Shown in pieces: positions 8,701 through 63,603 of a DNA stretch of 64,000 nucleotides; positions within the stretch are counted from its first letter, which is position 1, and every line of letters begins with the position of its first letter. The translations under genes were made by a program, and so were the position numbers. This DNA comes from Bolinopsis microptera (taxonomy: Eukaryota > Ctenophora > Tentaculata > Lobata > Bolinopsidae). The stretch is taken from contig NC_087079.1 of assembly GCF_026151205.1 (NCBI RefSeq), forward strand, positions 9,040,635 to 9,104,634. The letters are read 5' to 3'. The notes under the pieces are model-generated. The model ran no database searches. It was not told where the DNA came from and worked only from the letters and a program-made list of their open reading frames with translations.

Positions 8701-9552
8701 GAAAACACTACACTCCTAAAAAAATACGAACAGTCTTACTGGCAAGGGAAAAAGAAAATGGAAGAAATAAATATCAGTAATCGATGTGCGTTGTGGCTAC
8801 TCAACTTATAATTTGTGCAACGATGCGTAATTATTTACGGGATATAACAGACACTCACAAAACGAGAATATAGTTAGAGTCTTATTTGTGGGAGTAACCA
8901 AAACGGTTACAATAAAGCCATGGAGAAGGGAAGCGCTATGAGAAGGGATGCGCTATGTTTATAATGTAAAAGCATGTAACCCACATGAACATTCTGAATA
9001 TTAAATAAGTTAAGTAAATATTTTTGACGTCTGTTTATTGTTACTTGCAGCGACACATCAAATTATTCAAGCGTGGCTGGCTTCTTGAGAAAAAATAAGT
9101 AATTCTTGACGTTTTATAGGGGGGGGGGGGATCATGTTATTTTTTGTCCGTTTTTGTCCGTTTTTGTCCGTTAATTTTTGTCCGTTTTGAAAATATAGCT
9201 GCCAAACGGACAAAAACGGACAAAAACGGACAAAAATTGTAACTTTTGATTTAAATTTTCTCCACAATTTGTAACAGGCTATCTGCAGAAATGGGTAGCC
9301 CGGTTAATGACCATGGTCCTTTCTCAAACTTTTAATCTTCAATTAGGCACAAAGAATACCTAGTCTACACATTTTTTAATTACATAAAAAGGGATGAAAA
9401 GTTTTATTACTGGAGAGTAAAACTTTGTTAAACACAAAGATTCTTGAGCACATTTTGAGTCAGACTCAAATGCGCTTAAAAACATTTTAGTATATAACAA
9501 TAAATTATGTTAACAATAACACCAACAATAATTATAAATTGAACAAATTATT

Positions 9553-11862
9553 GAGAGATGAAAGAGAGGAAAAGGAGGAGGGGGGACTGAGGAGGGGGAC
9601 TGAGGAGGGAGAGGAGGGGGGCTGAGGAGGAGTGAGACTGAGAAGGAGAACTGAGGAGGAGGAATGAATAGGAGGAGGAGAAGAAGGACTCAAGAGAAGG
9701 AGGACCCAAGAGGAGGAGGACTTAGGAAAAGGCCCCATGAGGAGGACTGGGGAGGAGGAGGACCGATGAGGACTGATGAGGACTGATAAAGAGGACTAAG
9801 GACGAGGAGGAGGAGGAGGAGGAGGAGAAGGACTGAGGAGTGAGGAGGAGGACTGATGAGGAGAAGGAGGTGTATGAGGAGGATGAGGAGGAGAAAGGAG
9901 ATAAAGGATGAGGATAAGGAGGACTGAGGAGGAGGACTGGTGAAGAGGACTGATGAGGAGGAGGACTGAGAAGGGGAGGACTTAAGAGGACTGAGGAGGG
10001 GAGGACTTAGGAGGAAGAGGAGGATTGAGCAGGAGGAGGACTGAGGAGTAGAAGGAGGAAGAAGACTGAGGAGGATCAGGAGGACCCAGGAAGAGGAGGA
10101 AGAGGAGGAGGACTGAGGAGGAGAAGGAGGACCCAAGAGGAGGAACCAGGAAGAAGAGGAGGAGGAGGACTGAGAAGGAGGAGTGAGACTGAGAAGGAGA
10201 ACTGAGGAGGAGGAATGAATAGGAGGAGGAGGAGAAGAAGGACTCAAGAGGAGGACTGAGGAGGAGGAGGACTAAGGAGAAGGATGAGGAGGAGGACCCA
10301 AGAGGAGGAGGACCCAAGAGGAGGAGGACCCAGGAGGAGGACCCAGGAAAAGGCACCAAAAGGAGGACTGGGGAGGAGGAGGACTGATGAGGACTGATGA
10401 GGACTGATAAAGAGGACTAAGGACGAGGAGGAGGAGGAGTGAGGAGGAGAACTGATGAGGAGGAGGTGTACGAGGAGGATGAGGAGGAGAAAGGAGATGA
10501 AGGAAGGAGATGAAGGATGAGGATAAGGAGGACTGAGGAGGAGGACTGGTGAAGAGGACTGATGAGGAGGAGGACTGAGAATGGGAGGACTTAGGAGGAC
10601 TGAGGAGGGGAGGACTTAGGAGGAAGAGGAGGATTGAGGAGGAGGAGGACTGAGGAGTAGAAGGAGAAAGAAGACTGAGGAGGATCAGGAGGACCCAGGA
10701 AGAGGAGGAGGACTGAGGAGGAGAAGGAGGACCCAGGAGGAGGAACCAGGAAGAAGAGGAGGAGGAGGACTGAGAAGGAGGACTGAGAAGGAGAAGGAGG
10801 ACTGATGAGGAGGATGAGGATGAGGAGGAGGGTGACTGGGGAAAGGATTGAGGAGGAGGAAGACTGAGGAGGAGGAAGAGGAGAAGGACTGAGGAGGAGA
10901 AGGACTGAGGAGAAGGAAGAGGAGGAGGACTGAGGAGGAGGACCCAGGAGGAGGAGGACACAGGAAAAGGCCCCAGGAGGAGGAGGATGACTTGGGAGGA
11001 GGAGGACTGATGAGGACTGATGAGGAGGAGAAGTAAGTGGATGAAGAGGATGAGGAGGACTGAGGAGGAGGACTGGTGAGCAGAAGGAGGAGGACCCAGG
11101 AGGAGAAGGAGGAGGAGGAGGATAACTGAGGAGGAGGAGAAGGACTGAGGAGGAGAAGAGGGATCCAGGAGGAGAACCCAGGAGGAGGAGGAGGAGGACT
11201 GAGGAGGAGGACTAAGGAGAAGGAGGACTGATGAGGAGGATGAGGAGGAGGGTGACTGGGGAAAGGACTGAGAAGGACTGAGGAGGAGAATGCGGACTGA
11301 GGAGGAGGAACCAGGAAAAGGAGGAGGAGGACTGAAGAGGAGGACTGAGAAGGCGAAGGAGGACTGATGAGGAGGATGAGGATGAGGAGGAGGGTGGCTG
11401 GGGGAGGACTGAGGAGGAGGGTGACTGGGGGAGGACTGAGGAATATGAGGAAGACTGAGGAGGCGGAGGAAGAGGAGAAGGACTGAGGAGGAGAAGGACT
11501 GAGGAGGATGACTGAGGAGGAGGAGGACTGAGGAGGAGGAGGAGGACTGAGGAGGAGGAGGACTGAGGAGGAGGAGGACTGAGAAGGAGGAGGAGGAGGA
11601 GGAGGAGGAGGAGGAGGAGGAGGAGTGAATAGGAGGAGGAGGGGGACTGGGCAGGACTGAGGAGGAGGACTGAGGAAAAGGATGAGGAGGAGGACTGAGA
11701 AGGAGGACTGAGCTGAGGAGGAGAACTGAGGACTGAGGAGGAAGAGGAGGAGGATGAAGAGGAGGTGGACCCAAGAGGAGGAGGTCCCAGGAGGAGGACC
11801 CAGGAGGAGGACTCAGGAGGAGGAGGAGGATGACTGAGGAAGACTGAGGAGGAGGAGGAAGC
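9553..11862. repeat. purine-rich GAGGAGGACT minisatellite
   Basis: About 2.3 kb in which the plus strand is almost purely A and G, apart from the C and T of the recurring ACTGA or ACCCA. Units are variants of GAGGAGGACTGAGGAG and GAGGACCCAGGAGGAG, and blocks of several hundred bases recur as higher-order copies (around 9640-10250 and 10190-10800). The minus strand reads as long Ser/Leu/Pro-rich open frames of up to 530 codons. These follow from the composition and are not proteins. Confidence 0.9.
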
Positions 11863-11892
11863 ATCTAAATATTATTTCCATTTTTGTTATTT

Positions 11893-11965
11893 TTTGTCCG
11901 TTTTTGTCCGCTCTATTTTTTGTCCGTTTTGATAATATAGGGTTCCGAACGGAAAAAACGGATAA
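11893..11965. repeat. internal TGTCCG hairpin of element A
   Basis: TTTTTGTCCG repeats, a TTTTGATAATATAGGGTTCC loop, then the complementary CGGAAAAAACGG arm and GATCCCACC. This is a decayed copy of the right terminus found at 12668-12787, at 57870-57970 and at 63340-63422. It suggests that A is composite, built from two tandem modules. Confidence 0.65.
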
Positions 11966-11982
11966 AAAACAGGATCCCACCT

Positions 11983-12614
11983 GGAGGAGGAGGAGGAGGA
12001 GGAGGAGGAGGAGGAGGAGGAGAAGGATGACTGAGGAGGAGGACTGAGGAGGACTGAGAAGGAGGAGGACTGAGGAGTACTGAGGAGGATCGCTGAAGAG
12101 GATGGCTGAGGAGGATGGCTGAGGAGGATGACTGAGGAGGATGACTGAGAGGGAGGAGGAGGAGGACTGAGAAGGAGGAGGAGAAAGAGGACCCAGGAGG
12201 AGGACTCAGGAGAAAGAGGAGGAGGAGGACTCAGAAGGAGGAATGAGGAGGACTCAGAAGGAGGAATGAGAAGGAGGAGAACTGAGGAGGAGGAGGAGGA
12301 GGACTGAATAGGAGGAGGAGGGGGACTGGGGGAGGACTGAGGGGGAGGAGTACTGACGAAAAGGATGAGGAGGAGGACTGAGGAGAAGGACTGAGGACTG
12401 AGGAGGAAGAGGAGGAGGAGGACCCAGGAGGAGGAGGACTGAGGAGGATGATGAGGACTGCAGAGGAGGAGGACTGAGGAGGACTGAGGAGGACTGAAGA
12501 GGATGGCTGAGGAGGATGGCTGAGGAGGAGGAGGAGGAGAAGGTGGAAGAGGAGGAGGAGGAGGAGGAGGAGGAGGAGGAGGAGAAGGAGGAGGAGGAGG
12601 AGGAGGAGGAGGAG

Positions 12615-12640
<26 letters not shown>
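11983..12640. repeat. second GA-rich minisatellite block of element A
   Basis: Same purine-strand repeat as 9553-11862, including near-pure GGA runs at 11983-12022 and 12550-12640. It ends at the junction GGAAGCATCTAAATGTTATT that precedes the right terminal hairpin. Confidence 0.9.
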
Positions 12641-12646
<6 letters not shown>

Positions 12647-12793
12647 TAAATGTTATTTCAATTTTTGTTATTTTTTGTCCGTTTTTGTCCGTTTTTGTCC
12701 GTTTTTGTCCGCTTTATTTTTTGTCCGTTTTGAAAATACAGCTGCCAAACGGACAAAAACGGACAAAAAAACATGAGCCCCCCCCCCTTTATA

Positions 12794-13319: not shown

Positions 13320-13802
13320 TGTTTAGGGGGGGGGGGGGGGCCAAGTGGATATTTGTAGATATTTGTAGATTAATGTAGAATGGATAATCCACGAAAAAAG
13401 TGGATGACATTCTACAAATATCTACATTTATCTCCAAAAATTCAGTAGAATTTCTGGGCATTAACTTCAATTTCATCACGTTTTTATATATGCTAAGTGA
13501 TATTATCTGACTACTTGCACAGTTCTTCTATGTTTATTTGAGTGTATTTACATGGAGATTATGGTCCATAAACACTATCATACAATAGAGAAAAGCAATG
13601 ATCTAAAAGGGTGGAACTATCTAATTTAATGTTGCATATTATGGGGGGGCGGCGCGGGGGGGGGGGGGGGGGGGGGGGGGGGGCTAAAGTTCTGATCTCT
13701 AGTACCGGTGCTGTCAGTCTGAACTTCCAACCATGCCATCCGCCTGACTAGGGAGAGATAAAAGAGGTACTGTTAAATATGGCAAAATAAAATTGTCACA
13801 AG

Positions 13803-15905
13803 GTGGAATGAGGAGGAGGAGGTGGAAGAGGAGGCTAGGAGGACTGTGGAGAAAGAGGGGACTGAGGAGAAGGAAGAGGAGAACTGAGGAGGAGGACTGA
13901 GGAGAAGGAGGAAGAGGATGAGGACTGAGAAGGAAGAGGAGGAGGATGAGGACTGGGGAGGAGGACTAAGGAGGAATATTGAGGAGGATGAGGATCACTG
14001 ATCGGCTTAGGGCGAGGCCGAGGGGTACTTTTTTATCTTAATAGCCGAGGCCGAGGAGTGCCATCTTAGTTAAGACCGAGGCCGAGGGAAGCCGTGGGGT
14101 GCTTTTTTGACCGAGGCAGAGGTCTATCCTAGTATATGCCCTTTGAATAAACGCCATCATGTAATTAGGAAAAAAAATAGGAATACTGTTTTCAGAAATG
14201 AGAAATAAGAATGTGTCGTACATATAAGGACTGAGGAGGAAGAGGATGACTGAGGAGGAGGAGGACTGAGGAAAAAGAGGACTGAGAAAGAGGTGGAGGA
14301 GGTTGAGGAGGACTGAGGAAGAGGAGGACGGAAGAGGACTGAGGAGGAAAAACACTCAAGAGGATCAGTAGGACTGAAAAGGAGGAAGTGTTAGGAGGAG
14401 GGGGACTGAGGAGGAAGATTAAGGAGGAGGTGGACTGAGGAGGAAGTTAGGAAGAGGAGGACTGAGGAGGAAGAGTTAGGAGGATCAGGAGGGGGACTGA
14501 GGAGAAGGACTAAGGAGAAGGAGGACTGAGGAGGAGGATGAGGGGAAGGAGGAGGAGGAGGTTGAGGAGGACTGAGAAGGAGAAGGACTGAGGAGGAGAA
14601 GGAAGAGTAGGGGAGAAGGAAGCATCTAAATTTTATTTCCGTAACAGTTTTTGTCCGTTTTTGTCCGCTTGCGGATGGGGAGACGGAGGACTGAGAAGAA
14701 ACTGTACAAGCGAGGACTGAGGAGAACTGAGGAGGAAAAGGATAACTGCGGAGGAGGACTGAGGAAGAAGAGGACTGAAGGTGAGGTGGAGGGGGAGGAG
14801 GTTGAGGAGGACTGAGGAAGAGGAGGAGGAAAAATACTCAGGAGGAACAGTAGGACTGAGAAGGAGAGGACTGAGGAGGAGGAGGACTGAGTAGAAGGAG
14901 AATGACTGGGAAGAAGGAGGACTGAGGAGGGGACTGAGGAGGATGACTTAGGAGGAGGTGGAGGACTGCGGAGGATGATGGGGGAAGGAGGAGTGGAGAA
15001 GGAGGAGGAGGAAGCATCTAAATGTTATTTCCGTGAGAGTTTTTGTCCGTTTGTATCCGTTTATGTCCGTTTTTGTCCGCTTTCTGAGGAAGAGGATGCG
15101 GATGGGGAGACGGAGGACTGAGAAGGAACTGTACATGCGATGACTGAGGAGGAGGAGTTTGAGGAGGACTGAGGAGGAGGGAAGGAGGTTGAGGAGGACT
15201 GTGAAGAGAAGGACTGAGGAGGAAGAGTTAGAAGGAGGACTGAGGAGGAAGAGTTAAGAGGAGGGGGAATGAGGATGAAGAGTAAGGAGGAGGGGGACCG
15301 AGGAGGAAGAGTTAGGAGGAGGGAGACTGAGGAGGAAGAGTTAGGAGGAGGGGGACTGAGGAGGAAGACTTAGGAGGAGGAGGCCTGTAAAAATGTCCGC
15401 TTTCTGAGGAGGAGGATGCAGATGGGGAGACGGAGGACTGAGAAGGAACTGTACAATGTACATGCGATGACTGAGGAGGACTGAGGAGGGAAGGATGACT
15501 GAGGAAGAGGACTGAGGAAGAGGAGGACTGAGGATAAGGTGGAAGAGGGTGAGGAGGACGGAGGAAGAGGAGGACTGAGGAAGAGGAGATCTGAGGAGGA
15601 TGATAAGGAGGAGGATGTCAGGATGAGGAAGAGGATGAGTAGGAACACTGAGAAGGATGAGAAGGAGGATGAACCATCTAAATGTCATTTCCGTAACAGT
15701 TTTTGTTCACTCCGGACTGCGGAGGAGGATGATTGAAGAGGAGGAGGAGGAGGTTGAGGAGGACTGAGAAGGAGAAGGACTGAGGAGGAGAAGGACTGAG
15801 GAGGAGGGGGAGGTGTAGGAGGACTGAGGAGGAGGAGGAGGAGGAGGAGGAGGAGGATAAGGAGGTGGTAGACTTGGGAGGAGGAAGAGGACCAAGGAGG
15901 AGAAG
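13803..15905. repeat. GA-rich minisatellite of element C
   Basis: Purine-strand repeat of the same kind as in A and B, interrupted at about 14618-14670, 15005-15080, 15395 and 15675-15720 by the (A/C)CATCTAAATGTCATTT junction and remnants of TTTTTGTCCG. The phrase GATGCGGATGGGGAGACGGA recurs with small variation near 14674, 15096 and 15416, showing module-level duplication. A GGCCGAGG-rich patch at 14005-14120 breaks the pattern. Confidence 0.85.
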
Positions 15906-16058
15906 GAGCAGTGTGGTTGACTATTTCGTAATCACCTCATGGGCAAGAGATCATTGCTTTGTGAAATTAGTATGAATTTATCTTGAGCCGTCCTGCAGGA
16001 CATGCAAACTTTGCTGGAGTATAGTTTTGCGAAACAAACTTAACCCGACCCTTGGAAA

Positions 16059-16345
16059 TCATGACATTTGAACTCCCTCAGCTTCGCTTTCTTGATCGAA
16101 AGCTGATGCTAAAATCCCCCCCCCCCCCCCCTCCTGAAGAAGAGGAGGTCTGAGGAGGATGATAAGGAGGAGGATGTCAGGATGAGGAAGAGGATGAGTA
16201 GGAACACTGAGAAGGATGAGAAGGAGGATGAACCATCTAAATGTTATTTCTGTAACAGTTTTTGTTCGCTCCGAACAAATCATGAACATTTGAACTCTCT
16301 CAGCTCCGCTTTCTTGATCGAATGCTGATGCTAAAATCCCCAAAA
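16059..16345. repeat. duplicated module inside element C
   Basis: A phrase running GAACTCCCTCAGCTTCGCTT, CTTGATCGAA and GCTGATGCTAAAATCCCC is present at about 16071-16118 and again at 16291-16342. The GA block between them (16140-16275) repeats the one at 15580-15715. A 17-base C-run follows the first copy. The structure suggests tandem duplication with one junction at the C-run. Confidence 0.7.
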
Positions 16346-16396
16346 TTAGTTTTTCCCCCGTTCAGCAACAGAGTTTCTGCCGATCTTATGTCGATC

Positions 16397-16546
16397 GTTC
16401 CGAAGAGGGTTGTGCTGACCTCAGTTGCTGCCTCCGAATCTGCTTCCTCCGATTCTAACATATTATAAGTATACTTATAATATGTTAGAATCGGAGGAAG
16501 CAGATTCGGAGGCAGCAACTGAGGTCAGCACAACCCTCTTCGGAAC
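16397..16546. repeat. perfect 150-bp palindrome
   Basis: The sequence from GTTCCGAAGAGGG reads identically on both strands up to CCCTCTTCGGAAC. The arms are 75 bases each, with no spacer, centred on AGTATACT between 16471 and 16472. On the minus strand the right arm continues towards the 151-codon frame at 16618. Such a palindrome would extrude as a cruciform; it may be a foldback duplication or an assembly artefact. Confidence 0.85.
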
Positions 16547-16617
16547 TTAAGTATCATCAGTGCAAGTGGGACAGTCCACTTCATCATTCTCACACTCAGT
16601 CAACTCTGCAGGGTCAT

Positions 16618-17073
16618 TTATATCCTCCTCTCATTCAATCGGATGATGTTTTCATCTTCAAATATTTGCAGGAAAGGTAACTTGAACTTCTTACCATCGT
16701 CCACGACAGCCTTGGTACCTCGTTCCATGGCTTTCTTCAAGCTATCTATTTTGATGTCACTTGAACTCAAATCGTGGACCTCCTTCGTATCATTCTTCCA
16801 TGTCTCGTGTGGTAGTGGAACTTCTTCCCTGAAAATACTGCGTCCACGGGAATGGGCATAGGCTGTCATGTCATCTGCAAGAGCGAGCTCTGAGCGAAGA
16901 TTTATTTTCTCGCAGCCGTATGCTAAAGTTATGGCATCGAGATTTGTGCGGCGACCAGCAAAGATACCAGTTCGAATCCAAGCAAAGAGTTGTTCATTAG
17001 CATCAGATCCTAGTAGGTATGTTGTTACTTTTGCAGAAAAAGGAGATAGAGAATGAGTCCATCGCAAGTACAT
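16618..17073 (-). CDS. 151-codon open frame inside element C, unknown
   Basis: This open frame has ordinary, non-repetitive protein composition, from MYLRWTHSLSPFSAK to FEDENIIRLNERRI. It includes a stretch resembling a soluble alpha-helical domain (DSLKKAMERGTKAVVDDGKK). I do not recognise a transposase signature (no DDE/D triad, zinc knuckle or HTH that I can place) or a host family. It lies wholly within C, so it is either a captured host exon or a piece of the element's own protein. Pseudogene status cannot be excluded. Confidence 0.4.
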   Translation of the reverse strand: MYLRWTHSLSPFSAKVTTYLLGSDANEQLFAWIRTGIFAGRRTNLDAITLAYGCEKINLRSELALADDMTAYAHSRGRSIFREEVPLPHETWKNDTKEVHDLSSSDIKIDSLKKAMERGTKAVVDDGKKFKLPFLQIFEDENIIRLNERRI

Positions 17074-17937
17074 TTCAGATCTTTAAACGTCTGCCAAGTT
17101 ATAAACTGACAACTATCAGTTATATTAGATTTCCAGAGAACAAAAAAAGACTTGCAGTAAGAAAGCCTCAGCTAGAAAATGGATACTCTTCAGAAAAAGT
17201 CCTGTGGCTGAATATCCTTCTCTCAAAAAATACTAGTATAAGCAGGACAGATCCAGAACAAGTGAAGGATCTTGACGGTCAGTCAGATTCAAAGCACTGA
17301 GAGAAGTATAGGCAAGCATATAGGGGTTGTCCTTGATGAAATTATAGATGAGTGGTTACATCAAATATGGAACCTAATTCAGGTATTTAATGACATGTAT
17401 AATTACTAGAAGCTTTCTGGAATCCAATAGATAAAACATGTAATGGATAAGAAATCACACAAATTTCTATACATTTTTTGTAGATAAATGTAGATATTTG
17501 TAGATTATTGTCAATGGATAATTCACGAAAAAAGTGGATGACATTCTACAAATATCTACAAATATCCACTTGGCCCCCCCCCCCCTGTTTAGTTATGTTG
17601 AGGTATTTTATGTTGAGGTAATTTCTAAAAATGCAGGAAACATGCATATTGTCTGTGATCAGAACATAATGACGTTTAATGAAGACCGCAGTAGAGATAA
17701 GTTGACACATTGCTCTATACACAATTACACTGTTATATAACAAGATTGTGTGTAATAGGAGCCATCATGTTAACTGTGCGTAGAAGCATACAGCATTTTC
17801 ATCAGGGTCAATATTTGATAAGTATTTGAATGTATGTGTACATGATATTATATGTATCACGGAGGGAGTCGTGTGAAATATTTATTTTGTTTGGCAACTG
17901 TCGAAAATGTTGCATTTCAATCTTACTATGTAATATT

Positions 17938-18652
17938 GGGGGGGGGGGGGGGGGGGGGCCAACCATATTAAAGTATATTAAAATGTAGGATTTTTCCCGA
18001 TTTTGACCCGGGGATATACTTTAATATACTTTAATATACTTACAATATACTTTAATATATCCCTATCTCCTTGGAGGCCTACATCAAAAATTGTTTCCCA
18101 AAATAAGCTTGAAATGCAATTCTTAATCGATTCCAAAAAGTTCTTGAACAAATATTGAAAACTGATGGAGTTATTTCAATTTTAATGAAGTCATTTTGGC
18201 TAGTATTCCGAACCGAGATATTATGTGCAATTTTCCCAATTTTGTTCATGGAGGTCTTTTTACTTAGTATCCACTATATTCAACAAACACTGAGTTATAT
18301 CTTTCACATAGAGTTAGTCTCATTAAAAAATATTGAAATTTTATCGAATTTGGGCAAAAGCGAATTTGGGCAAAAGCGTATGCCCAAATATGGGCATATT
18401 TTTTAAAGCTCATAGCTCAGCCAATTTTTGACCAATCTGGATGGAAATTCATGTACTAGTCCTAAAACAGGCTTATCTTGCGAATCTGAGTGAAAAATAT
18501 AGTTCATCATGTAAATCTTAACGAAGAATATAAATCTTCTAATTGTAGGTATATTAAAGTATATTAAAATGTAGGATTTTTTCCGATTTTGACCCGGGGA
18601 TATGATATACTTTAATATACTTTAATATGGTTGGCCCCCCCCCCCCCCCCCC
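17938..18652. mobile_element. G-run/C-run hairpin element, type D (715 bp)
   Basis: Twenty-one G (17938-17958) open the element and 18 C (18635-18652) close it. The flanking duplication is ATATT (17933-17937 and 18653-18657). After the G-run, CCAACCATATTAAAGTATAT is matched by the inverted copy at the right end. Both ends carry a hairpin of TATTAAAGTA repeats around the same loop, AATGTAGGATTTTT(C/T)CCGAT, in the same orientation (17961-18062 and 18549-18634). The 480-bp interior has no convincing gene; an 83-codon plus-strand frame at 18155-18406 looks like chance. This is the simplest and clearest member of the family. Confidence 0.75.
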
Positions 18653-30291: not shown

Positions 30292-30893
30292 CAGTGGCGT
30301 AACGAAGGGCCCCCGCTGACCCCGCTGTGAGGGGGGGGGGGGGGGGGGGGGGGCGTCTTAGGGGGGCGCCAAATCGTCGTTTGAATGTGGCAGTGGCGTA
30401 ACGAAGGGCCCTGCTGACCCCGCTGTGCAGGGGGGCGCCGTCTTAGGGGGGCGCCAAATCGTCGTTTGAATGTGGGACAATTTCGAAAACTTAACTAAAG
30501 TACTAGCAAAACTGCGCGTTTTGCTCTAGATACACACTTTTTTAGAGATTTTACCAGCATATCCTCTTAAATCGCCTAATTTGTTCAATTTTAGGGAGGG
30601 GCACCAAAAGGAGAGGGGGCGCCAACAGGGGGGCGCCTTTTCGGCAGGGGGGCGCCAACAGGCAACGTTACGCCACTGGAATGTGGGACAATTTTGAAAA
30701 CTTATCTTAAGTACTAGCAAAACTGCGCGTTTCGCTCTAGATACACACTTTCTTAGAGATTTTACCGGTGTATCCTCTAAATTCACCTAATCTGTTCAAT
30801 TTTAGGGAGGGACACCAAAAGGGGAGGGGGCACCAACAGGGGGGGGGGGGCGCTATTTGGCGGGGGGCGCCAACAGGCAATGTTACGCCACTG
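30292..30893. mobile_element. hAT MITE, CAGTGGCGTAACG family (602 bp)
   Basis: Typical hAT ends (CAGTGGCGTAACG at the left, TGTTACGCCACTG at the right) and a perfect 8-bp duplication TGCACATC (30284-30291, 30894-30901). The interior is rich in GGGGGGCGCC, including a G-run of about 22 bases near 30330. A second member of the same family is inserted at 30391-30678. Confidence 0.85.
30391..30678. mobile_element. same-family hAT MITE nested in the first (288 bp)
   Basis: Left end CAGTGGCGTAACGAAGGG, right end AACGTTACGCCACTG, with the 8-bp duplication GAATGTGG at 30383-30390 and 30679-30686. The insertion interrupts the outer MITE, so it is the younger event. Confidence 0.85.
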
Positions 30894-32908: not shown

Positions 32909-33793
32909 GTGACGATTAGTGTGGTTGGTTTTATCCGATTTTTTTAGATTTTTATGGAGGTTGTACCATTGTAAAACTTACATTGTGACAGTATAGATGG
33001 CGAAATATTTTTGAAAATGGTCCTAACACAGCTTTGATAGTAACAATAACATTGGGTGAATAGATTGGGTGAACAAACTATGAAGCAGGCAATTATATGT
33101 GCTCATCCATCATTCTGCATATGTAAGCTCAGTAGTTTAATTGCTGATTCATACTCAATGGTGAATCGATAGAATTCATGTGTCGGAGATCTCGTGAGAA
33201 CACCTTTTAATAATTATAGCCCTCAGGATCGCATTATCCCGATCCGGCCGTAATGTGTATTGAGGTATGCACTAATTGTAGTGGTGAACGGTTGCAGCTC
33301 AGGCTATGTTTCAGTATAACTATATATCAGAGATCGCAGTATATTTACATTCTACTCGGATTGCAGATTGAAATATTTTCCTGTTGGAACCATGACACAT
33401 GCAGGGGAATACCAAAATATTAATTGTAGTTGTACAACTAATATGATCAATAATTAATAACGGCAACGCTAATTTGTCCTTATTGGACTTTATTTTTACG
33501 GACATAAGTTAATAGTTGCTGCAAATGCCAAATGCTACAACTACAAGTTAAGCCCTAGGGTTCATTTTAATGTCCGTTCATTTTAATTTTAATATCCGTT
33601 CGAATATTGGCGGACGTTTTAAATTGTAATTAAATAGACCATTGAGCGGTCGCGTTTATTTTAATGTCCGCTCAAAATTATTCCCGTTCACATTATTTCC
33701 GGTTGCAGTACGGGTAAAATAACGTCCGAATAAAGCTATCCGATAAGCTCAGGCAGAGCTTTCGGACTGCGTAAAACTAAACAACTTGAAACG

Positions 33794-34140
33794 TTGAAGA
33801 ACGCCGTTAAGACATCTGTTGTTAACTCACCTAAAACACAAACATACAGTCCAATGGCGAAGAATTCACAGCCAACTGAGCAAGTCATAAGCTCGGAAAC
33901 GCTCAAAAGCGTAGTAAAACGTGTTGTCGAGGAAGAGGACCGCAGTCTAGTCGCAACGTCATTGTATTTGGTCTGTTACAAGGGAGTGAGATATATAGAG
34001 AACTTATTGACACAGTTAGCGTGATTTTCCAAAACATTGGACAGAAACCGAAGATTGTTGAAGCGTGCAAAATTGCCAGAAAATCTAAGGACAATTTAGT
34101 TACAGCATCATTAATAAATGAGCAATTACGTTATTCGTTT
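33794..34140 (+). pseudogene. LINE ORF1-like fragment, left arm (frameshifted)
   Basis: The frame encodes SETLKSVVKRVVEEEDRS, the start of a domain seen in ORF1 proteins of CR1-like and other LINEs (pattern EEEDRSxNVxVFG...IGxKPxI). A CTAGT insertion after DRS shifts the frame; the rest (VFG, then QNIGQKPKIVEACKIA) is in another frame. A mirror copy in the right arm has the same insertion, so the two arms derive from one mutated copy. Confidence 0.6.
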
Positions 34141-34280
34141 AAGTTATTGCAAAATATTTGATTCCAATAAATAAAATCCGCCTTGTGCCGCGTGCGCTAA
34201 TTTACTAATTCTGTACTCGCCTGCGTACACTGTACTGTACAGTGTACAGCAGGAGCAGGCCTGCAGGCATCATGCTACAT

Positions 34281-36700: not shown

Positions 36701-37329
<629 letters not shown>

Positions 37330-37439: not shown

Positions 37440-37790
37440 TTAAACGAATAACGTAATTGCTCATTTATTAATGATGCTGTAACTAAATTGTCCTTAGATT
37501 TTCTGGCAATTTTGCACGCTTCAACAATCTTCGGTTTCTGTCCAATGTTTTGGAAAATCACGCTAACTGTGTCAATAAGTTCTCTATATATCTCGCTCCC
37601 TTGTAACAGACCAAATACAATGACGTTGCGACTAGACTGCGGTCCTCTTCCTCGACAACACGTTTTACTACGCTTTTGAGCGTTTCCGAGCTTATGACTT
37701 GCTCAGTTGGCTGTGAATTCTTCGCCATTGGACTGTATGTTTGTGTTTTAGGTGAGTTAACAACAGATGTCTTAACGGCGTTCTTCAACG
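37440..37790 (-). pseudogene. LINE ORF1-like fragment, right arm (frameshifted)
   Basis: Inverted copy of 33794-34140 with the same CTAGT-type insertion and the same SETLKSVVKRVVEEEDRS start. It shares the frameshift, which shows the arms are duplicates of each other. Confidence 0.6.
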
Positions 37791-38684
37791 TTTCAAGTTG
37801 TTTAGTTTTACGCAGTCCGAAAGCTCTGCCTGAGCTTATCGGATAGCTTTATTCGGACGTTATTTTACCCGTACTGCAACCGGAAATAATGTGAACGGGA
37901 ATAATTTTGAGCGGACATTAAAATAAACGCGACCGCTCAATGGTCTATTTAATTACAATTTAAAACGTCCGCCAATATTCGAACGGATATTAAAATTAAA
38001 ATGAACGGACATTAAAATGAACGCTAGGGCTTAACTTGTAGTTGTAGCATTTGGCATTTGCAGCAACTATTAACTTATGTCCGTAAAAATAAAGTCCAAT
38101 AAGGACAAATTAGCGTTATTAATTATTGATCATATTAGTTGTACAACTACAATTAATATTTTGGTATTCCCCTGCATGTGTCATGGTTCCAACAGGAAAA
38201 TATTTCAATCTGCAATCCGAGTAGAATGTAAATATACTGCGATCTCTGATATATAGTTATACTGAAACATAGCCTGAGCTGCAACCGTTCACCACTACAA
38301 TTAGTGCATACCTCAATACACATTACGGCCGGATCAGGATAATGCGATCCTGAGGGCTATAATTATTAAAAGGTGTTCTCACGAGATCTCCGACACATGA
38401 ATTCTATCGATTCACCATTGAGTATGAATCAGCAATTAAACTACTGAGCTTACATATGCAGAATGATGGATGAGCACATATAATTGCCTGCTTCATAGTT
38501 TGTTCACCCAATCTATTCACCCAATGTTATTGTTACTATCAAAGCTGTGTTAGGACCATTTTCAAAAATATTTCGCCATCTATACTGTCACAATGTAAGT
38601 TTTACAATGGTACAACCTCCATAAAAATCTAAAAAAATCGGATAAAACCAACCACACTAGTGACGATGTCAATGGTCAACCTTA

Positions 38685-41897: not shown

Positions 41898-44800
41898 CTG
41901 GGGATTATTGTTCTATTAGGTACTTACTTAATTGACGGTTTTATCAAAGTAATTACTGTGATAACCTTATAATTACAAGTAATATTCCCTATTTTATAGG
42001 TGGCTTGACAAAGAAAAGTGCACTACCTCGCCATAATAGTGACATCAGGGATTTATATGTACCTGGAATTTGCGGTAGAGGAAGTCAATCTCGTGAGGTT
42101 GAAATGAGGTTATACCTCGAACACTGCGCAGAACACTTCTCTTATCTTGGTCCTCTATAGACTGTACTACCTGATAAGGAGAATTGTTAGGATCTTTACA
42201 TTAATTTCATGTTTGGAGCCATAATAAACCAACCAATATTGGGAAGTTTGACGTTTTAATACAAAGTAAGCGTTGAAGAAAGAACGACAAGCGACCAAAT
42301 ACGTCAATACGATTTATCCGGGAAAGCTTTATAATCATATTTGGTCAAGGGCGTTATAACGTTTGTCAGGGTGTATAACGGTTATCTTAATCAAATACAT
42401 TTTTATTGTTCAAAAAGCTTTATATTCATATTAGATCAAAGGCTGTCTAACGGTCCTTTTAATCAAATGACATTTAATAGTATAACCTGTCCAATGCCAG
42501 GAATAGAAATGACATTATCATTATGGCCTCCAACCCCCTGTCAAGTTATTAAATATATAACTTTTCACTCACTTCATTTCACTCATTCACTTTATATTTT
42601 ATTACCACAGTATCTGCCAAAACCAACATGGCCTAAGTAGAGAGGGGCCTTGACGTTGTTTCCCGCTTGGCCCTGCATCCCAAGCTGACGGTTGGCCTCC
42701 ACTCTAAAGAAACTTACCTTCAGTGGAGGCCGATGGTCAACAATTAGCGATGTAAGAGCTTGGCGAGTACAAATCCTGACCTCCTTTTACACCTTTGGGA
42801 CGACTTTCGCAAATGCGAGAGGAATGACCCCGAGGAGGGCTCCATTGGTTTTAGTAGGTTGCATATTATTTAAAAAAAAAAAAAAAGAAAAAAAAAAAAA
42901 AAAAAAAAGTTATTAAATATATAAATTTTTTACAACACACATTTCCTCACCTTGAGTCGCTCCGAGTTACGTAAGTTCTCCACGTGAGTCATTGAGATGT
43001 GCCCGAAGTTCCGGTAACTCATTGAGATTAGGAGTCCTATTTCGACTGATTTTGAGGAGATGGTCTGAGAAAAAGGGGACGTGTTTCATTAACTGTAAAC
43101 TAGTTTAATACATGAAGCTATCAAGCGCAATCAGAACACAATAATAATCGCTAACAACTAAATTAATGAACGATTACATCACATTTCACAACAATAAAAT
43201 CATTACAGAGACAGAGATATAGTAAGAAATAAATTATCAGTAATATCTTTATACCTGTATCTGTAAAGGAGAGTCCTTGTTGCAGATGCTCTCTGTGAAC
43301 TCAGTGAGAAGCTGCATGGCCTCCCCATCATCATGCACCTCCAGTAGTGCTGCCTGGTTGTATTGCAGGATCTGTATTGCTATCTGGAACAGGAACTTTG
43401 TACCTGTGGGACTGGTGGTTATTGGCTGTGATAAAGTGGTGAGCTACAGTTGGAACCATTATAAATAATCAATATCGATCAAGATGTACATTACAATTCA
43501 TTCTTAAATAAGTCTTCAAGCTTGAATATTTAAAATACTTAATTAAACATACCCTCGTAAAAGAAGGAGTCCACAATGTGGATAGCAGAGGAGAAAGGAA
43601 CAATGGAGAGGAAGAGAGTAAGGAACCAAGACATGGTAACCATCTTCAGTACTCCCAGATTAGCCAGATGTCGGTGTAAATCCGGTAAGTTCTCTTTCAG
43701 CAATATCTCGAAGACATTCTGATCCACAATAGCTCCCACGACCTTCTTGTTATAATAGTCAGGAAGTAGTCGCTCCACAACAGCTACCAGCAGCCAGAAG
43801 GACTCCTCTTCCGAGCCGTACAGAAGAAACACACTGGCTATCATATTCATAGCTTGACAGTATCCCACGTTGGAATTGTAGAGGGCGTAAGAGAGTAAGA
43901 CCCGTCTCAGAGCGTCAATACCTTTCTCAGATTGGTAGGCTGGGTGTTCTGGTAACGACCTGGACGGGAGGAGTTGTTTAGAGTTCTGGTCGGAAACTGT
44001 TTCGTACAATCTCTAAATGGTTTCTAATTAGAGTCAGTATTCTGCTGTGTACAGTAGTTTTTATCAGTCAATGTATGTTTCCAGTCCGAATTTAACCTAA
44101 AAGGCATCACCAATATTTAGACCGTACGTGTTTTAGAACCGTACGTGTTTTTGGAGACTCTAAATTAACACCGGTATGACGTTAATAGCTAAACTAATAA
44201 CTGTTGTAACCGGATAACCGAGCAACAACAGATGCAGATAGACCTAAACATTGTTCATTCTCAAAATTGCAAAGTAACCCAATAAGTAAAAACATGGGCT
44301 TAGACTTGAAATGTCGTTTTTATTTAAAAATCAAGAGACTTGGCGAAATGTTAGTTTTTTAACAGTTTTATTATTATTTTAATTGATTGATGGGCAAGCA
44401 AGCATGGATCCATATCATAACATGCATATGGATAATCGCCTCTGGTTAGAGTTAATATGAACACGACACACATCATTCAAAGAGAGTATGACAATTTAGA
44501 ATATTGCACATCCTGCAATTCAATACTATTTATTGATGTAGCGGTGATTAACAATAATTTAATAATCACAAATCATATTACCACATGATATATCACTGTC
44601 ACGTTGTGCTAGCTCAGTCTAGTCGGTCAAATAAAGGTTTATTAAAAGTTGAAATTTATTATGTCGCGCGATGTTTCTACAAATATATTTTTAGCGCGTT
44701 ACATATATTCCATTGCCGCGTAATTCCAGGATAGGACACACGAATGAACAAAATAAAAGAATTTTGCACCGCTATTCTTGATTTGATGAGCGACAATATG

Positions 44801-56281: not shown

Positions 56282-56526
56282 TATAGGGGGGGGTGTCATG
56301 TCCGTCTATGTCCGCCTATGTCCTGTCCTTTTTGGATTCTATGAGACAACGGACGTGTTTTTTGGGACATTGGCGGACACGGACGGACATTGGCGGACTC
56401 GGACGGACATTGGCGGACTCGGACGGACATTGGCGGACTCGGACGGACATTGGCGGACCCGGACGGACATTGGCGTACTTGGATGGACATTGGTGGACAT
56501 TAGCGGACATTGGTGGACATTAGCGG

Positions 56527-57845
56527 ACAAACATTTTGAGGACTGAAGAGTACTGAAGAGTACTGAAGAGTACTGAGGAGGATGGCTGAGAAGGATGGCT
56601 GAGGAAGATGACTGAGGAGGATGACTGAGGAGGATGACTGAGAGGGAGGAGAAGGATCAGGAAGACCCAGGAGGAGGAGGAGGAGGAGGAGGACCCAGAA
56701 GGAGGACCTAGGAGGAGGAGGAGGAGAACTGAGGAGGATGACTCAGGAGGAGGAGGACTCAGGAGGAGGACTGAGGAGGACTGAGAAGGAGGAGGACTGA
56801 GGAGGATGGCTGAGGAGGATGGCTGAGGAGGATGACTGAGAGGGAGGAGGAGGAGGAAGAGGAGGAAGAGGACTGAGGAGGAGGAGGAGAAGGACTGAGG
56901 AGAAGGAGGACCCAGGAGGAGGAGGACCCAGGAGGAGGAGGACCCAGGAAAAGGCCCCAGGAGGAGGAGGAGGACTGGGGAGGAGGAGAACTGTTGAGGA
57001 CTGATGAGGAGGACTGAGGACGAGGAGAAAGAGTAGGAGGAGGACTGAGGAGGGGAGGAGGAAGAGGACTGGGGAGGATCAGGAAGACCCAGGAGGACCC
57101 AGGAGGAGGAAGAGGAGGAGGAACCAGGAGGAGGAGGAGGACTGAGAAGGAGGACTGACGATGACTGGGAAGGAGGACTGAGGAGTACTGAGGAGGATGG
57201 CTGAGGAGGATGGCTGGGGAGGATGGCTGAGGAGGATGACTGAGAGGGAGGAGGAGGAGGACTCAGGAGGAGGACTCAGAAGGAAGAGGAGCTGAGGAGG
57301 ACTCAGGAGGAGGACTTAGGAGAAACGAGAAGGAGGACTGAGGAGAACTGAGGAGGAGGAGGAGGAGGAAGACTGAATAGGCGGAGGAGAAGGAGGGGAC
57401 TGGGAGAGGACTGGGGAGGAGGAGGACTGATGAGAAGGATGAGGAGGAGGACCCAGGAGGAGGAGGACTGAGGACCGAGGAGGAAGAGGAGGAGGATTAA
57501 GAGGAGGAGGAGGACCCAGGAGGAGGAGGACTGAGGAGGAGGACTGAGGAGGACTGAGGAGGACTGAGGAGGAGGATGGAGGACTGAGGAGAATTAGAAG
57601 GATGAGGAGGAGGACTGAGGACTGAGGAGGAAGAGGAGGAGGATGAAGAGGAGGAGAAGGACCCAGGAGGAGGACTCAGGAGGAGGAGGAGGACTGGAGA
57701 GGAGGAGGACTACATTGAGGACTGATGAGGAGGACTGAGGACGAGGAGGAGGAGTAGGAGGAGGACTGAGGAGGGGAGGATCAGGAGGAAGAGGACTGAG
57801 GAAGATCAGGAATACCCAGGGGGAGGAGGAGGAAGAGTAGGAGGA
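56527..57845. repeat. GA-rich minisatellite of B1
   Basis: Purine-strand repeat starting GAGGACTGAAGAGTACTGAA and ending at the GGAAGCATCTAAATGTTATT junction. It is colinear with 61812-63307 in B2, with several indels. Confidence 0.9.
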
Positions 57846-58020
57846 GGAAGCATCTAAATGTTATTTCCATTTTTGTCCGTTTTTGTCTATTTTTGTCCGT
57901 TTTTGTCCGCTCTATTTTTTGTCCGTTTTGAAAATATAGGGTACCGAACGGACAAAAAACATGATCCCCCTATAACAGCAAAAATTGAACTTTTTATTTA
58001 GCAATTTAGGTGTCCATTAA

Positions 58021-58160
58021 TGTCCGCCTATGTCCGCCTATGTCCGTCTATGTCCGCCTATGTCCGCCTATGTCCGCCTATGTCCGTCTATGTCCGCCTA
58101 TAGGCGGACATAGACGGACATAGGCGGACATAGGCGGACATAGGCGGACATTGTCCGCCT
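58021..58160. repeat. expanded CTATGTCCGC hairpin of B1
   Basis: Eight CTATGTCCGC/CTATGTCCGT units run into their own complement (GGCGGACATA units) at CCTATAGG, giving a near-perfect hairpin before the normal terminal loop. B2 lacks the complementary part, so this arm was gained in B1 or lost in B2. Confidence 0.8.
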
Positions 58161-58668
58161 ATGTCCTGTCCTTTTTGGATTCTATGAGACAAGCGGACAT
58201 AGACGGACGTGACACCCCCCCCCCCCCCTATATTGGGGGATCAAGGACCCCTATTATTATGTATTATGTAAATTCCAAAACATCGAGTGCCCAGCGATTT
58301 CTCAGCTGTAGGGAGCTGTAGGATGTTCTTAATCGCTCCGATGTTAATTAGTTTTGTTGCAGCTCCAAATATTTTATATAACACAGTCTAATCAGTGGCG
58401 TGGTTAACACGGGTCACGGAGTGCAAGAAACGGAGAGAATTGGCATCGATTTTACACGATAGAAATTTATATTGGCTGCCAAATTGGCTGCATCTAATCA
58501 ATTAATCAATAAAGTTAAGAAATGTTAGGACCTGATCACTTCTGAAAATAAAAATAAACTTAATGTTGCTATTTCAATATGCCAGATTGTAACACTAACA
58601 GTAATGTTTCTCTAAGTACTCGTCAAGCTCGGCCAGAGTTGGAATTTCGTGATCTAATAAAAGCTTTG

Positions 58669-59785
58669 AGCAACACTGAATACATATTTGGAGGCATGTA
58701 GCTGTAGCTGCCTACTCTGAGCAACACTGGATACATGTTTGGAGGCATGTAGCTGTAACTGCCTACTCTGAGCAACACTGGATACATGTTTGGAGGCCTG
58801 TAGCTGTAACTGCCTACTCTGAGCAACACTGGATACATGTTTGGAGGCATGTAGCTGTAGCTGCCTACTCTGAGCAACACTGGATACATGTTTGGAGGCC
58901 TGTAGCTGTAACTGCCTACTCTGAGCAACAATGGATACATGTTTGGAGGCATGTAGCTGTAACTGCCTACTCTGAGCAACACTGGATACATGTTTGGAGG
59001 CCTGTAGCTGTAGCTGCCTACTCTGAGCAACACTGGATACATGTTTGGAGGCCTGTAGCTGTAATTGCCTACTCTGAGCAACACTGGATACATGTTTGGA
59101 GGCATGTAGCTGTAGCTGCCTACTCTGAGCTACACTGGATACATGTTTGGAGGCCTGTAGCTGTAGCTGCCTACTCTGAGCAACACTGGATACATGTTTG
59201 GAGGCATGTAGCTGTAGCTGCCTACTCTGAGCAACACTGGATACATGTTTGGAGGCATGTAGCTGTAACTGCCTACTCTGAGCAACACTGGATACATGTT
59301 TGGAGGCCTGTAGCTGTAGCTGCCTACTCTGAGCAACACAGGATACATGTTTGGAGGCCTGTAGCTGTAACTGCCTACTCTGAGCAACACTGGATACATG
59401 TTTGGAGGCATGTAGCTGTAGCTGCCTACTCTGAGCAACACTGGATACATGTTTGGAGGCATGTAGCTGTAGCTGCCTACTCTGAGCAACACTGGATACA
59501 TGTTTGGAGGCCTGTAGCTGTAGCTGCCTACTCTGAGCAACACTGGATACATGTTTGGAGGCATGTAGCTGTAGCTTCCTACTCTGAGCAACACTGGATA
59601 CATGTTTGGAGGCCTGTAGCTGTAGCTGCCTACTCTGAGCAACACTGGATACATGTTTGGAGGCCTGTAGCTGTAGCTGCCTACTCTGAGCAACACTGAA
59701 TACATGTTTGGAGGCATGTAGCTGTAGCTGCCTACTCTGAGCAACACTGGATACATGTTTGGAGGCCTGTAGCTGTAACTGCTCC
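58669..59785. repeat. 51-bp minisatellite, about 22 copies
   Basis: Units start GAGCAACACTGGATACATGT and continue TTGGAGGC(A/C)TGTAGCTGTA. Copies are over 90 percent alike and differ mainly at two positions (GGCATG/GGCCTG, TAGCTG/TAACTG). Because 51 is a multiple of three, the minus strand stays open with a 17-residue repeat (RPPNMYPVLLRVGSYSY). One TTG-to-TAG change near 59129 interrupts it. Coding function is possible but unsupported. Confidence 0.92.
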
Positions 59786-61530
59786 TCTTATATCCGCTCT
59801 GTCACGAGTCCTTTTTGAAAGTCTGCTCTACCAACTGTTAACTAAAACCTGTCATTTCTTGAGCAATACTCAGCAATACCAAATTCTGCAGAATACTAAG
59901 AGTTATGTTTGAATCTGTAGAATCTAAAATCTTAGACTTTCGGTCAATCGACAGTATACATGTTCAGGGTTTCAGCTACATCCCTAAATTAGAATCAAAC
60001 CATACGAGTACTGTGTAGGTGTTGTACCCTAAACTACCTACCTCACTGGGAGAAATAACACGTGCTCTACAGCTACACATGCTCTTAGTAGTACTACTGC
60101 TCTTATTAAAAGTGCACTTATTTGGATATGTTCGCCTATTAAAGGGATTAATCAAGCCCTTGGGGTAGTATTCTCTCAATATTCCACTTATTGGAGGATT
60201 ATTCTCTCAATATTCCACTTGCGATGAGGTCCAGTGGAACCCTTACAAGTATCCGCCATTAATTGACCCATCATCAATAATCACCAAATTCAGTTTTAAA
60301 ACCAGTTCAACTATGTGCATGAAGTTGAAGATGGCACGTTGGTCGGCAGAAGAGACACAGGTGACCTGATGCCCGTTTAAACTTCTTTTAAACTCCTCTA
60401 CACTCCACCATCTACACTCCTTTTAAACCCACACTAGCCCCCACACATGTCGACACACGCGAAATGAGGATATCTCACAATCACCAGGTCTCAACAGAGA
60501 CAGGACCAATAGTTGCCATGGTGATTGATCACGTGACCATAGTAACGAGCGCAGACACTACGGTCGGCTACTGACCAGACAAAAGACAAGGAGTGTGTAG
60601 TCTACAGCTTATTACTGAAGAGGCTGCTGGATTTTTACACAGGATTACACAGGATTAAAATTAAATTATAGATCCATTATCATGGACCGTCATAATTGTA
60701 CAGAGATTAATGAAAACATTCATCTTTTCTTGAAGTCAGGGCCAGGGTTATCCTTAAATCTTAATTATGACTAATTCGCGAGGTTCTCACCAAGTTGATA
60801 GTAAAATTGTTTAAGTTTCGTGCATTTGAATTACGTTGACGCATATCTTCGGTGAAGCTATTTCGCTCTTCGGAGCAGCGAAGGAAATAAGTGCACACAC
60901 AGTTGACAGCATAGGAGCGCCTTTCTTGAAATTGAATATACTGTGGGGTGTTTGGTTGAATATTAAGTGAACGGTGGCAGTGAATATGGAGGCTCTGGTG
61001 ATTTTGAGGAATTACAGTTGAGTTAGGAGACAAAATTTCCATAAGATGGACTTTGAGATTTGTCTGTTGTGACAAGGTGTGTCCCAGGTGATGTCCGAAT
61101 ATTCTCATATTTTATCTGGTTTTAACTGTAACGCGCGAATGTCACTGATCTGGGTATTCCAACTTAGCTGGTCTGTTTACTAAGGGTCATGTAATTTCAT
61201 GTATCAAGATAAGTGGTAAACTGAGTTAACTTCTGATTAAAGAGACTCCAGAACATTCCCCGTAATTAGTGCCCGTAATTAGAGGAAGGAGAGTGGAAGT
61301 AACACTAGTAATTACAGGAATAACAGTCTAGGAGGCTGCTAACATGGTGATTACCTTATCACTAATCCTGCTCACTTATCAGGCTCGTAAAGTCACTCTG
61401 ACACAACAATAGTGTTAGTGATATTAGCCAACATAGAAATATGGTCATGTCTTAAAGGAGATTGGAGGTACTCCGTCTAAGATTGGAATAAAGATTAGAG
61501 AAGAACAAGTCTTGTGACTTGTCGTTAGAT
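59786..61530. other. region between minisatellite and B2, no confident gene
   Basis: No homologous exon was identified. The minus frame of 115 codons at 60761-61108 has no recognisable domain. The stretch near 60520-60570 is less AT-rich, but I see no defined promoter element. Confidence 0.45.
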
Positions 61531-61533
61531 AAT

Positions 61534-63603
61534 GGGGGGGGGGGGGTGTCATGTCCGTCTATGTCCGCCTATGTCCTGTCCTTTTTGGATTCTATGAGAC
61601 AACGGACGTGTTTTTTGGGACATTGGCGGACACGGACGGACATTGGCGGACTCGGACGGACATTGGCGGACTCGGACGGACATTGGCGGACTTGGACGGA
61701 CATTGGCGGACCCGGACGGACATTGGCGGACTTGGATGGACATTGGTGGACATTAGCGGACATTGGTGGACATTAGCGGACATTGGTGGACATTAGCGGA
61801 CAAACATTTTGAGGACTGAAGAGTACTGAAGAGTACTGAAGAGTACTGAGGAGGATGGCTGAGAAGGATGGCTGAGAAGGATGACTGAGGAGGATGACTG
61901 AGGAGGATGACTGAGAGGGAGGAGAAGGATCAGGAAGACCCAGGAGGAGGAGGAGGAGGAGGACTCAGAAGGAGGAGGAGGAGAACTGAGGAGGATGACT
62001 GAGGAGGAGGAGGACTGAGGAGGAGGACTGAGGAGGACTGAGAAGGAGGAGGACTGAGGAGGATAGCTGAGGAGGATGACTGAGAGGGAGGAGGAGGGGG
62101 AAGAGGAGGAAGAGGACTGAGGAGGAGGAGAAGGACTGAGGAGGAGAAGGAGGACCCAGGAGGAGGAGGACCCAGGAGGAGGAGGACCCAGGAGGATCAG
62201 GAGGACCCAGGAAAAGGCCCCAGGAGGAGGTGGAGGACTGGGGAGGAGGAGAACTATTGAGGACTGATGAGGAGGACTGAGGACGAGGAGGAAGAGTAGG
62301 AGGAGGACTGAGGAGGGGAGGAGGAAGAGGACTGGGGAGGATCAGGAAGACCCAGGAGGACCCAGGAGGAGGAGGAGGACCCAGGAGGAGGAGGAGGACT
62401 GAGGGGGACTGAGGAGGAGGACTGACGATGACTGAGAAGGAGGAGGACTGAGGAGTACTGAGGAGGATGGCTGAGGAGGATGGTTGGGGAGGATGGCTGA
62501 GGAGGATGACTGAGGAGGATGACTGAGGAGGATGACTGAGAGGGAGGAGGAGGAGGACTCAGAAGGAAGAGGAGGAGGACGCAGGAGGAGGACTCAGGAG
62601 GAGGACTTAGGAGAAATGAGAAGGAGGACTGAGGAGAACTGAGGAGGAGGAGGAGGAGGACTGAATAGGAGGAGGAGAAGGAGGGGGACTGGGAGAGGAT
62701 TGGGGAGGAGGAGGACTGATGAGAAGGATGAGGAAGAGGACCCAGGAGGAGGAGGACTGAGGACCGAGGAGGGAGAGGAGGAGGATGAAGAGGAGGAGGA
62801 GGACCCAGGAGGAGGAGGACTGAGGAGGAGGACTGAGGAGGAGGACTGAGGAGGAGGACTGAGGAGGACTGAGGAGGACTGATGAGGACTGAGGAGGATG
62901 GCTGAGGAGGATGACTGAGAGGGAAGAGAAGGAGGAGGAGGAGGACTGAGGAGGACTGAGAAGGAGGAGGAGGAGGAGGAGGACTGAATAGGAGGAGGAG
63001 GAGGGGGACTGGGGGAGGACTGAGGAGGAGGATGGAGGACTGAGGAGAAGGATGAGGAGGAAGACTGAGGAGGACTGAGGACTGAGGAGGAAGAGGAGGA
63101 GGATGAAGATGAGGAGGAGGACCCAGGAGGAGGACCCAGGAGGAGGACTCAGGAGGAGGAGGAGGACTGGGGAGGAGGAGGACTGTTGAGGACTGATGAG
63201 GACTGAGGACGAGGAGGAGGAGTAGGAGGAGGACTGAGGAGGGGAGGAGTAAGAGGACTGAGGAAGATCAGGAAGACCCAGGGGGAGGAGGAGGAAGAGT
63301 AGGAGGAGGAAGCATCTAAATGTTATTTCCATTTTTGTCCGTTTTTGTCCATTTTTGTCCGCTCTATTTTTTGTCCGTTTTGAAAATATAGGGTACCGAA
63401 CGGACAAAAAACATGATCCCCCTATAACAGCAAAAATTGAACATTTTATTTAGCAATTTAGGTGTCCATTAATGTCCGCCTATGTCCGTCTATGTCCGCC
63501 TATGTCCGCCTATGTCCGTCTATGTCCGCCTATGTCCGCCTATGTCCTGTCCTTTTTGGATTCTATGAGACAAGCGGACATAGACGGACGTGACACCCCC
63601 CCC
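61534..63603. mobile_element. G-run/C-run hairpin element, type B, copy B2 (2.07 kb)
   Basis: Opens with 13 G (61534-61546) and closes with 8 C (63596-63603). Flanking bases share only AAT (61531-61533, 63604-63606). The ends, the direct-orientation loops, the GGCGGACTCGGACGGACATT array, the GA block and the internal type-A terminus are all colinear with B1. It is in the same orientation as B1, 5.2 kb away, with unrelated flanks. That argues for two insertions rather than a segmental duplication. Confidence 0.75.
61812..63307. repeat. GA-rich minisatellite of B2
   Basis: Same purine-strand array as in B1, about 180 bases longer, ending at the GGAAGCATCTAAATGTTATT junction (63308-63327). The 266-codon minus frame across its right part is a repeat artefact. 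Confidence 0.9.

Follow-up and report, generated by a model that had tools for sequence, protein, structure and literature searches.

Elements with G-run and C-run ends in the window

The window analysed here is a stretch of 64,000 nucleotides from the ctenophore Bolinopsis microptera (contig NC_087079.1, positions 9,040,635 to 9,104,634), and our subject is a group of apparent DNA transposons in it, of types A, B, C and D, which begin with a run of G and end with a run of C. Five such blocks had been described in an earlier note made from the letters alone; all five were present, and their left runs of 8-21 G and right runs of 8-18 C were all verified. Element A (9119..12787, forward strand) extends from G12 to C10, with TTTTTGTCCG repeat hairpins and a purine minisatellite interior, and is flanked by the 6-bp target site duplication (TSD) TTTATA. 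Element C (13326..17585, forward strand; G15 to C12) has a 29-bp terminal inverted repeat (TIR) and the 6-bp TSD TGTTTA. Element D (17938..18652, forward strand) is a 715-bp putative miniature inverted-repeat transposable element (MITE) running from G21 to C18; its TSD, ATATT, is 5 bp here and 6 bp in most copies. Blocks B1 (56286..58228) and B2 (61534..63603), both on the forward strand, look like deletion derivatives of a B element resembling a 12.1-kb one found elsewhere in the genome. With the segment separating them (58229..61533, no strand assigned) they make up a probable composite on the forward strand (56286..63603), with the outer 6-bp TSD AATATA.

Terminal inverted repeats lay directly inside the G and C runs in all five blocks. 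They measured 29 bp in C (CCAAGTGGATATTTGTAGATATTTGTAGA), 24 bp in D (CCAACCATATTAAAGTATATTAAA) and 22 bp with one mismatch in B (TGTCA(T/C)GTCCGTCTATGTCCGC), and were shorter and gapped in A ((A/C)TCATGTT...TTTTTGTCCG); the subterminal repeat unit was 10 bp. When ten terminal stretches were folded, z ranged from -3.3 to -10.4 (two of the ten were the identical B sequence). The left hairpin of A (9131..9240) gave the value of -10.4, and those of C (13341..13440) and D (17959..18060) were recognised by folding and end-module alignment. The right hairpins of A (12660..12777), C (17470..17573) and D (18548..18634), all on the forward strand, each aligned to its left counterpart in direct orientation. 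That stem sequences are unrelated between types, as had been proposed, holds only in part, because A and B have TCATG...GTCCG in common, and B1 and B2 also hold an inner A-type hairpin. A purine minisatellite interior of the GAGGAGGACTGAGG type was common to A, C and B (9540-11860, 13800-15900, 56520-57850 and 61800-63310). Element C also contains a 154-amino-acid open frame on the reverse strand (16618..17082), which corresponds to the C-terminal part of a transposase-like protein (SDANEQLFAWIR motif) and had no match in Pfam; a remnant of the same protein was detectable at about 16621-17352, enclosing this frame.

The window contained nine G runs and six C runs of 8 or more, the longest of 28, whereas 30 Markov-simulated windows reached at most four and two, with a longest run of 10; chance homopolymers were rejected as an explanation. 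An unguided scan for a G run, an inverted repeat and a C run returned six pairings in the window: one for each of the five blocks, and 56286-63603. In the reversed window there was a single match, with no duplication. A 200-kb sample of contig C1 gave six matches, none with a duplication, and the reversed sample gave four, including one in low-complexity G-rich DNA that had a 6-bp duplication, indicating that the density of elements is uneven and that the scan by itself yields some chance matches. The sample held mostly other G-/C-rich repeats and one unpaired D-like left end (sample position 115970). Other long runs of the window (G28 at 13656, C16 at 16116, and those at 21053, 30331 and 30839) were not paired as ends in the scan. 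The internal runs of C (13643-13683 and 16116-16131) varied among the copies L041-L044 and were not element ends. The runs G23 (30331-30353) and G12 (30839-30850) lay within a 'cagtggcgtaacg...ggggcgcc' repeat.

Copies, duplications and an empty site

Ends of all four types were counted in the 264.65-Mb genome. Type A ends occurred 56 times forward and 54 times reverse, B ends 369 and 340 times, C ends (at most one mismatch) 99 and 100 times, and D end patterns 105 and 130 times; the reversed-pattern control returned 0 in every case. G14 itself occurred at 71,502 and 78,491 overlapping places. For D, 40 further near-full-length copies with 97-99% identity were scored among 1268 first-look candidates.

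Duplications were tabulated for 47 rows, comprising 42 fetched loci and the five window elements; the D locus L039, with two tandem copies, was excluded. Rows L041-L044 were chosen by long-distance and L045-L046 by short-distance end pairing, ten B copies came from the listed pairs on contig C1, and the D copies came from the best matches. An exact 6-bp TSD was found in 33 of the 41 rows of A, B, C and D together: the single A row, 10 of 13 B rows (4, 3 and 1 bp in the others), 6 of 7 C rows (7 bp in one; the six further copies comprised five of 6 bp and one of 7 bp) and 16 of 20 D rows (5 bp in three, 7 bp in one). Among mismatched left-right control pairs, agreement over 6 bp was seen in 13 of 2162, and agreement over 7 or 8 bp in none. 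The 6-bp duplications were varied and AT-rich.

One D insertion (L029) sits in a repeat, and its joined flanks were spanned without interruption across the junction (query position 1141) by 31 listed places at 93-99%. Two of these empty places were read directly; the element was absent and GGTTTT was present once. Joined flanks were searched for 8 of 30 insertions, and the other seven gave no uninterrupted second site among the matches listed.

The mobility, common architecture and high copy number suggested in the earlier note were thus borne out by genome-wide ends, TSDs and the empty site: the collection of loci returned tens to hundreds of ends per type, and neither a lack of further copies, nor a lack of empty sites, nor a coincidence of the runs with assembly joints was encountered. 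That the runs arose at joints, through gap filling or homopolymer errors, is scarcely credible. Homopolymer length is error-prone and did differ among copies, D rows ranging over G9-30 and C9-30. However, at dozens of loci the runs are bordered on one side by a terminal repeat specific to the family and on the other by a perfect flank duplication, and the empty sites that were read have neither; the precise lengths of the runs may nevertheless be wrong.

Hairpin units were also found outside the two-ended arrangement. A solo D hairpin on contig C2 was capped by G23 and C31 and flanked by the duplication AAATAA, and a short C form of 384 bp appears to contain three hairpin units. On contig C5 (6766343-6771171), D copies recurred at a spacing of about 2.4 kb, as if riding in a tandem array.

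Candidate transposase and classification of the group

A complete B element of 12,121 bp was found on contig C3, with B-type ends (G12 and C8) and AACGTT flanking both sides. Three open frames in it (L055; 407, 254 and 231 amino acids) contained SIDSTPV, WGDGDTPLR, QDLLH and SDQNEQYFA and are read here as probable exons of one gene. A relative of this transposase-like protein was a 766-amino-acid open frame at L047:845-3142, perhaps a domesticated gene, perhaps an old copy; the 5.5 kb of sequence retrieved around this frame showed no G-/C-run-capped inverted repeat. Four motifs were common to L047 and L055, SID(A/S)T, DGD(K/T)PLR, QD(P/L)LH and SD(L/Q)NEQ, and the conserved set (SID, DGDxPLR, QDxxH, SDxNEQxFA) supplies candidate D, D, DxxH and E residues, which would be catalytic. 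The third motif fits the DxxH motif that PMC3706591 reports for hAT, Kolobok, P, MuDR and Dada, located between the second D and E.

A tblastn search with the L043 copy of the C frame found 120 genomic places at E ≤0.001, some elements holding several. Related frames were 23-48% identical among families, and the remnant in C shared 33-48% identity with frames in the group's other elements. Viral contigs gave two pattern matches and no relative. Alignment of B1 and B2 to the 12.1-kb element gave 90-97% at both of its ends and 78-84% in the inner minisatellite part, so that they represent internally deleted versions of an element of this kind. The 12.1-kb element also holds a 4-kb minisatellite (L056:315-4295; 42-bp unit, about 89 copies) and a second open frame of 233 amino acids upstream of the transposase-like gene (5799-6497 of the L056/L055 concatenation). 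A motif similar to the 'cagtggcgtaacg...ggggcgcc' repeat adjoins it on C3.

Two sister families were found. E521 (L048, L049 and L052-L054) has GGGG(G)/CCCCC(C) ends, CATTAATGGT repeats and terminal inverted repeats, and its TSD was exactly 8 bp in four of five copies and 8 bp in the fifth when a single C of the run is included. F344 (L050) has G7 and C7 ends, terminal inverted repeats and, in the single copy analysed for it, an 8-bp duplication; another copy terminates in C24. Run length therefore varied among copies, and the duplication was 6 or 8 bp according to family. Both families encode frames of the transposase-like family, showing that G-tract ends accompany this protein family; the frames cover the C-terminal part only, so that both seem to be non-autonomous.

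A transposon built as a mirror image would have the loops of its two end hairpins pointing opposite ways. Here the left and right hairpins aligned with a higher score directly in six of eight elements (A, B1, C, D, E521 and F344), and, counted by family, the terminal palindromes aligned better as direct copies in five of six. The B2 hairpins were about equal (54 direct, 55 inverted), and those of the 12.1-kb B element aligned better inverted (69, against 53.5 direct), which argues against uniformly direct end modules. A palindromic unit usable singly, repeated or at the ends would explain the direct modules, the solo D hairpin and the three units of the short C form.

The earlier note had placed the elements in no recognised class. 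This is not supported, since inverted repeats with fixed-length duplications are those of class II transposons, indicating that A, B, C and D belong there. Terminal inverted repeats were found in the five blocks, the 12.1-kb B element, E521 and F344, together with fixed-length TSDs and, for one D insertion, empty sites. The mechanism class looks like that of an ordinary TIR DNA transposon. It is very probable that the elements A, B, C and D are non-autonomous and belong to one TIR group served by a group transposase, for which the 12.1-kb B element would encode the candidate enzyme. This enzyme would bind the ends at the 10-bp subterminal repeats beside the G-tract and move the elements by cut-and-paste, inserting them into AT-rich DNA by cuts staggered by 6 nucleotides and so leaving 6-bp duplications (8-bp in the sister families). 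B1 and B2 would then be internal deletions of such a B element, C would keep a decayed relative of the protein, D and the short C forms would be MITEs, and the G and C runs would be element ends that grow and shrink by slippage.

Several observations weigh against this reading. Mobility was read from sequence and no transposition was observed. One B copy (L065) lacked a TSD, that of D in the window measures 5 bp instead of 6, and TSD length was not uniform across families (6 versus 8 bp). For A and D, no associated protein was identified. In Pfam, the L047, L048, L050 and L055 frames had no match above the cut-off (the best was DUF4902, E 0.013). A PDB sequence search returned nothing and a PDB profile search returned one match, a splicing protein, at E 0.4. 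With no relationship to a known transposase in Pfam or PDB, the label 'DDE' for the candidate transposase rests on its motifs.

The earlier note had also suggested that one mobilisation mechanism recognises structure rather than sequence. Recognition of structure only was not supported and was set aside: terminal repeats differ from family to family and the protein frames are only 23-48% identical, so that family-specific sequence recognition appears to be the simpler reading.

Homopolymer tails, and terminal modules that are often direct and superficially resemble long terminal repeats, might recall a retroelement or a Helitron-like element whose G/C tails arose by untemplated addition. Such an origin is most improbable, given that the duplications are fixed at 6 or 8 bp, that each end has an inverted repeat and that the complete B element contains a transposase-like gene. 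Helitrons have neither TSD nor TIR, whereas A-D carry both. Pfam scans of 9 of the 43 listed open reading frames of the window found no reverse transcriptase or helicase; the only strong match was a RabGAP-TBC domain at 43539-44012. The window also holds perfect inverted repeats at 32917-38659, with arms of 773 and 546 bp that are 100% complementary and about 3.1 and 4.7 kb apart.

The chances are even that the elements are very divergent members of a named superfamily (P, Kolobok, hAT, MULE or Dada). The DxxH motif between the second D and E and the 8-bp TSDs of the sister families speak for this, as do repetitive Foldback-type ends like those of Galileo, a member of the P superfamily. Against it stand the absence of a Pfam match above the cut-off and of a significant PDB sequence match with the profile, the 6-bp TSD of four families, and the G-run termini, which are as unusual as had been supposed, no named superfamily that could be checked having such ends. 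The P superfamily has a TSD of about 8 bp, the length found in E521 and F344, while A-D have 6 bp. Pfam found no P-type transposase domain in the L047, L048, L050 and L055 frames and listed no hAT dimerisation or MULE domain, in single-sequence scans that leave room for a remote relation.

Among known systems, Drosophila FB elements have 10-bp repeats. Foldback-type elements such as Galileo likewise have long inverted repeats of internally repetitive sequence, able to fold back on themselves; in contrast, the elements described here have G/C homopolymer caps, mostly direct palindromes, a 6-bp TSD in A-D and no Pfam model above the cut-off. Dada elements are described in PMC3706591 as having a 6-7-bp TSD, the DxxH motif and an intron-containing transposase gene. 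A-D resemble them in TSD length, and the candidate transposase gene in the motif and its probable introns; however, by the same account Dada lacks TIRs and targets small RNA genes, whereas here TIRs are present and the targets are scattered and AT-rich. IS3EU/GingerRoot elements usually have a 6-bp TSD as well, but their termini are given as TA..TA, occasionally TG..CA, in PMC10045372, and differ from the G-run/C-run ends.

The B1-B2 composite and the standing of the lineage

The two B blocks had been counted as separate insertions. They stand as blocks, but are best read as arms of one composite. Neither arm had a 6-bp duplication of its own (4 bp for B1, 3 bp for B2), whereas AATATA was common to the left flank of B1 and the right flank of B2, the sole B pairing with a duplication in the scan. 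B1 and B2 were 97.8% identical over 1804 aligned bases. The 3.3-kb central segment had a second copy, 95-98% identical, at C6:4447662-4450782 (in L080), whose limits fell exactly at the B borders. No G/C-run element was present within the 7.9 kb fetched around that copy, and its flanks were unlike those of the window. The central segment includes a tandem array of about 51-bp units (58654-59790), present in the C6 copy too.

We infer that B1, the 3.3-kb segment and B2 are probably a composite transposon. Two B elements would have come to flank the segment at a C6-like site, and the outermost B ends would then have carried the 7.3-kb unit into the window; capture of the segment by another route is possible. 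The C6 copy was dropped as evidence of movement of the whole unit, as it has the segment alone and no B elements.

Two independent insertions of B1 and B2 are unlikely, even though B ends are common genome-wide and 1 of 10 other B copies has no TSD. Flanks matched over 6 bp in 13 of 2162 mismatched pairs overall, in 2 of 90 B pairs and at a rate of 0.00085 for random window positions; since B targets are AT-rich, the fair control is 2/90 or 13/2162, not 0.00085. AATATA is also the TSD of two other B copies, which makes a 6-bp match of unrelated flanks less rare. However, independent insertions would not explain why the duplication is on the pair and on neither arm, nor why the C6 homology ends at both inner borders. 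A composite has precedents in the maize Ac/Ds macrotransposons and prokaryotic composite transposons, in which two elements mobilise the DNA between them; the B composite differs in lying in an animal genome and being built of poly-G-ended elements.

The lineage may be new, and there is a real chance that it is a new superfamily. To our knowledge, poly-G/poly-C termini, direct palindromic ends and an unmatched transposase-like protein have not been described together, and no description of these combined features was found among open-access titles and the beginnings of abstracts, a scope outside which Repbase and Dfam lay. A fuller proposal is tentative and the less likely outcome: a new DDE superfamily in which the unit would be a palindrome capped by G and C, occurring solo, repeated or as direct termini, up to composites with host segments, and in which the cap would be functional, for example by shielding cleaved ends or through renewal by slippage with every insertion.

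If the protein is a lineage of its own, an animal transposon superfamily, from a phylum close to the root of the animal tree, may be missing from reference libraries. Direct palindromic ends with homopolymer caps raise the question of what a transposase requires of the ends, and the probable composite illustrates how such elements may carry other DNA. Some G runs, easily dismissed as low complexity, mark the ends of insertions.

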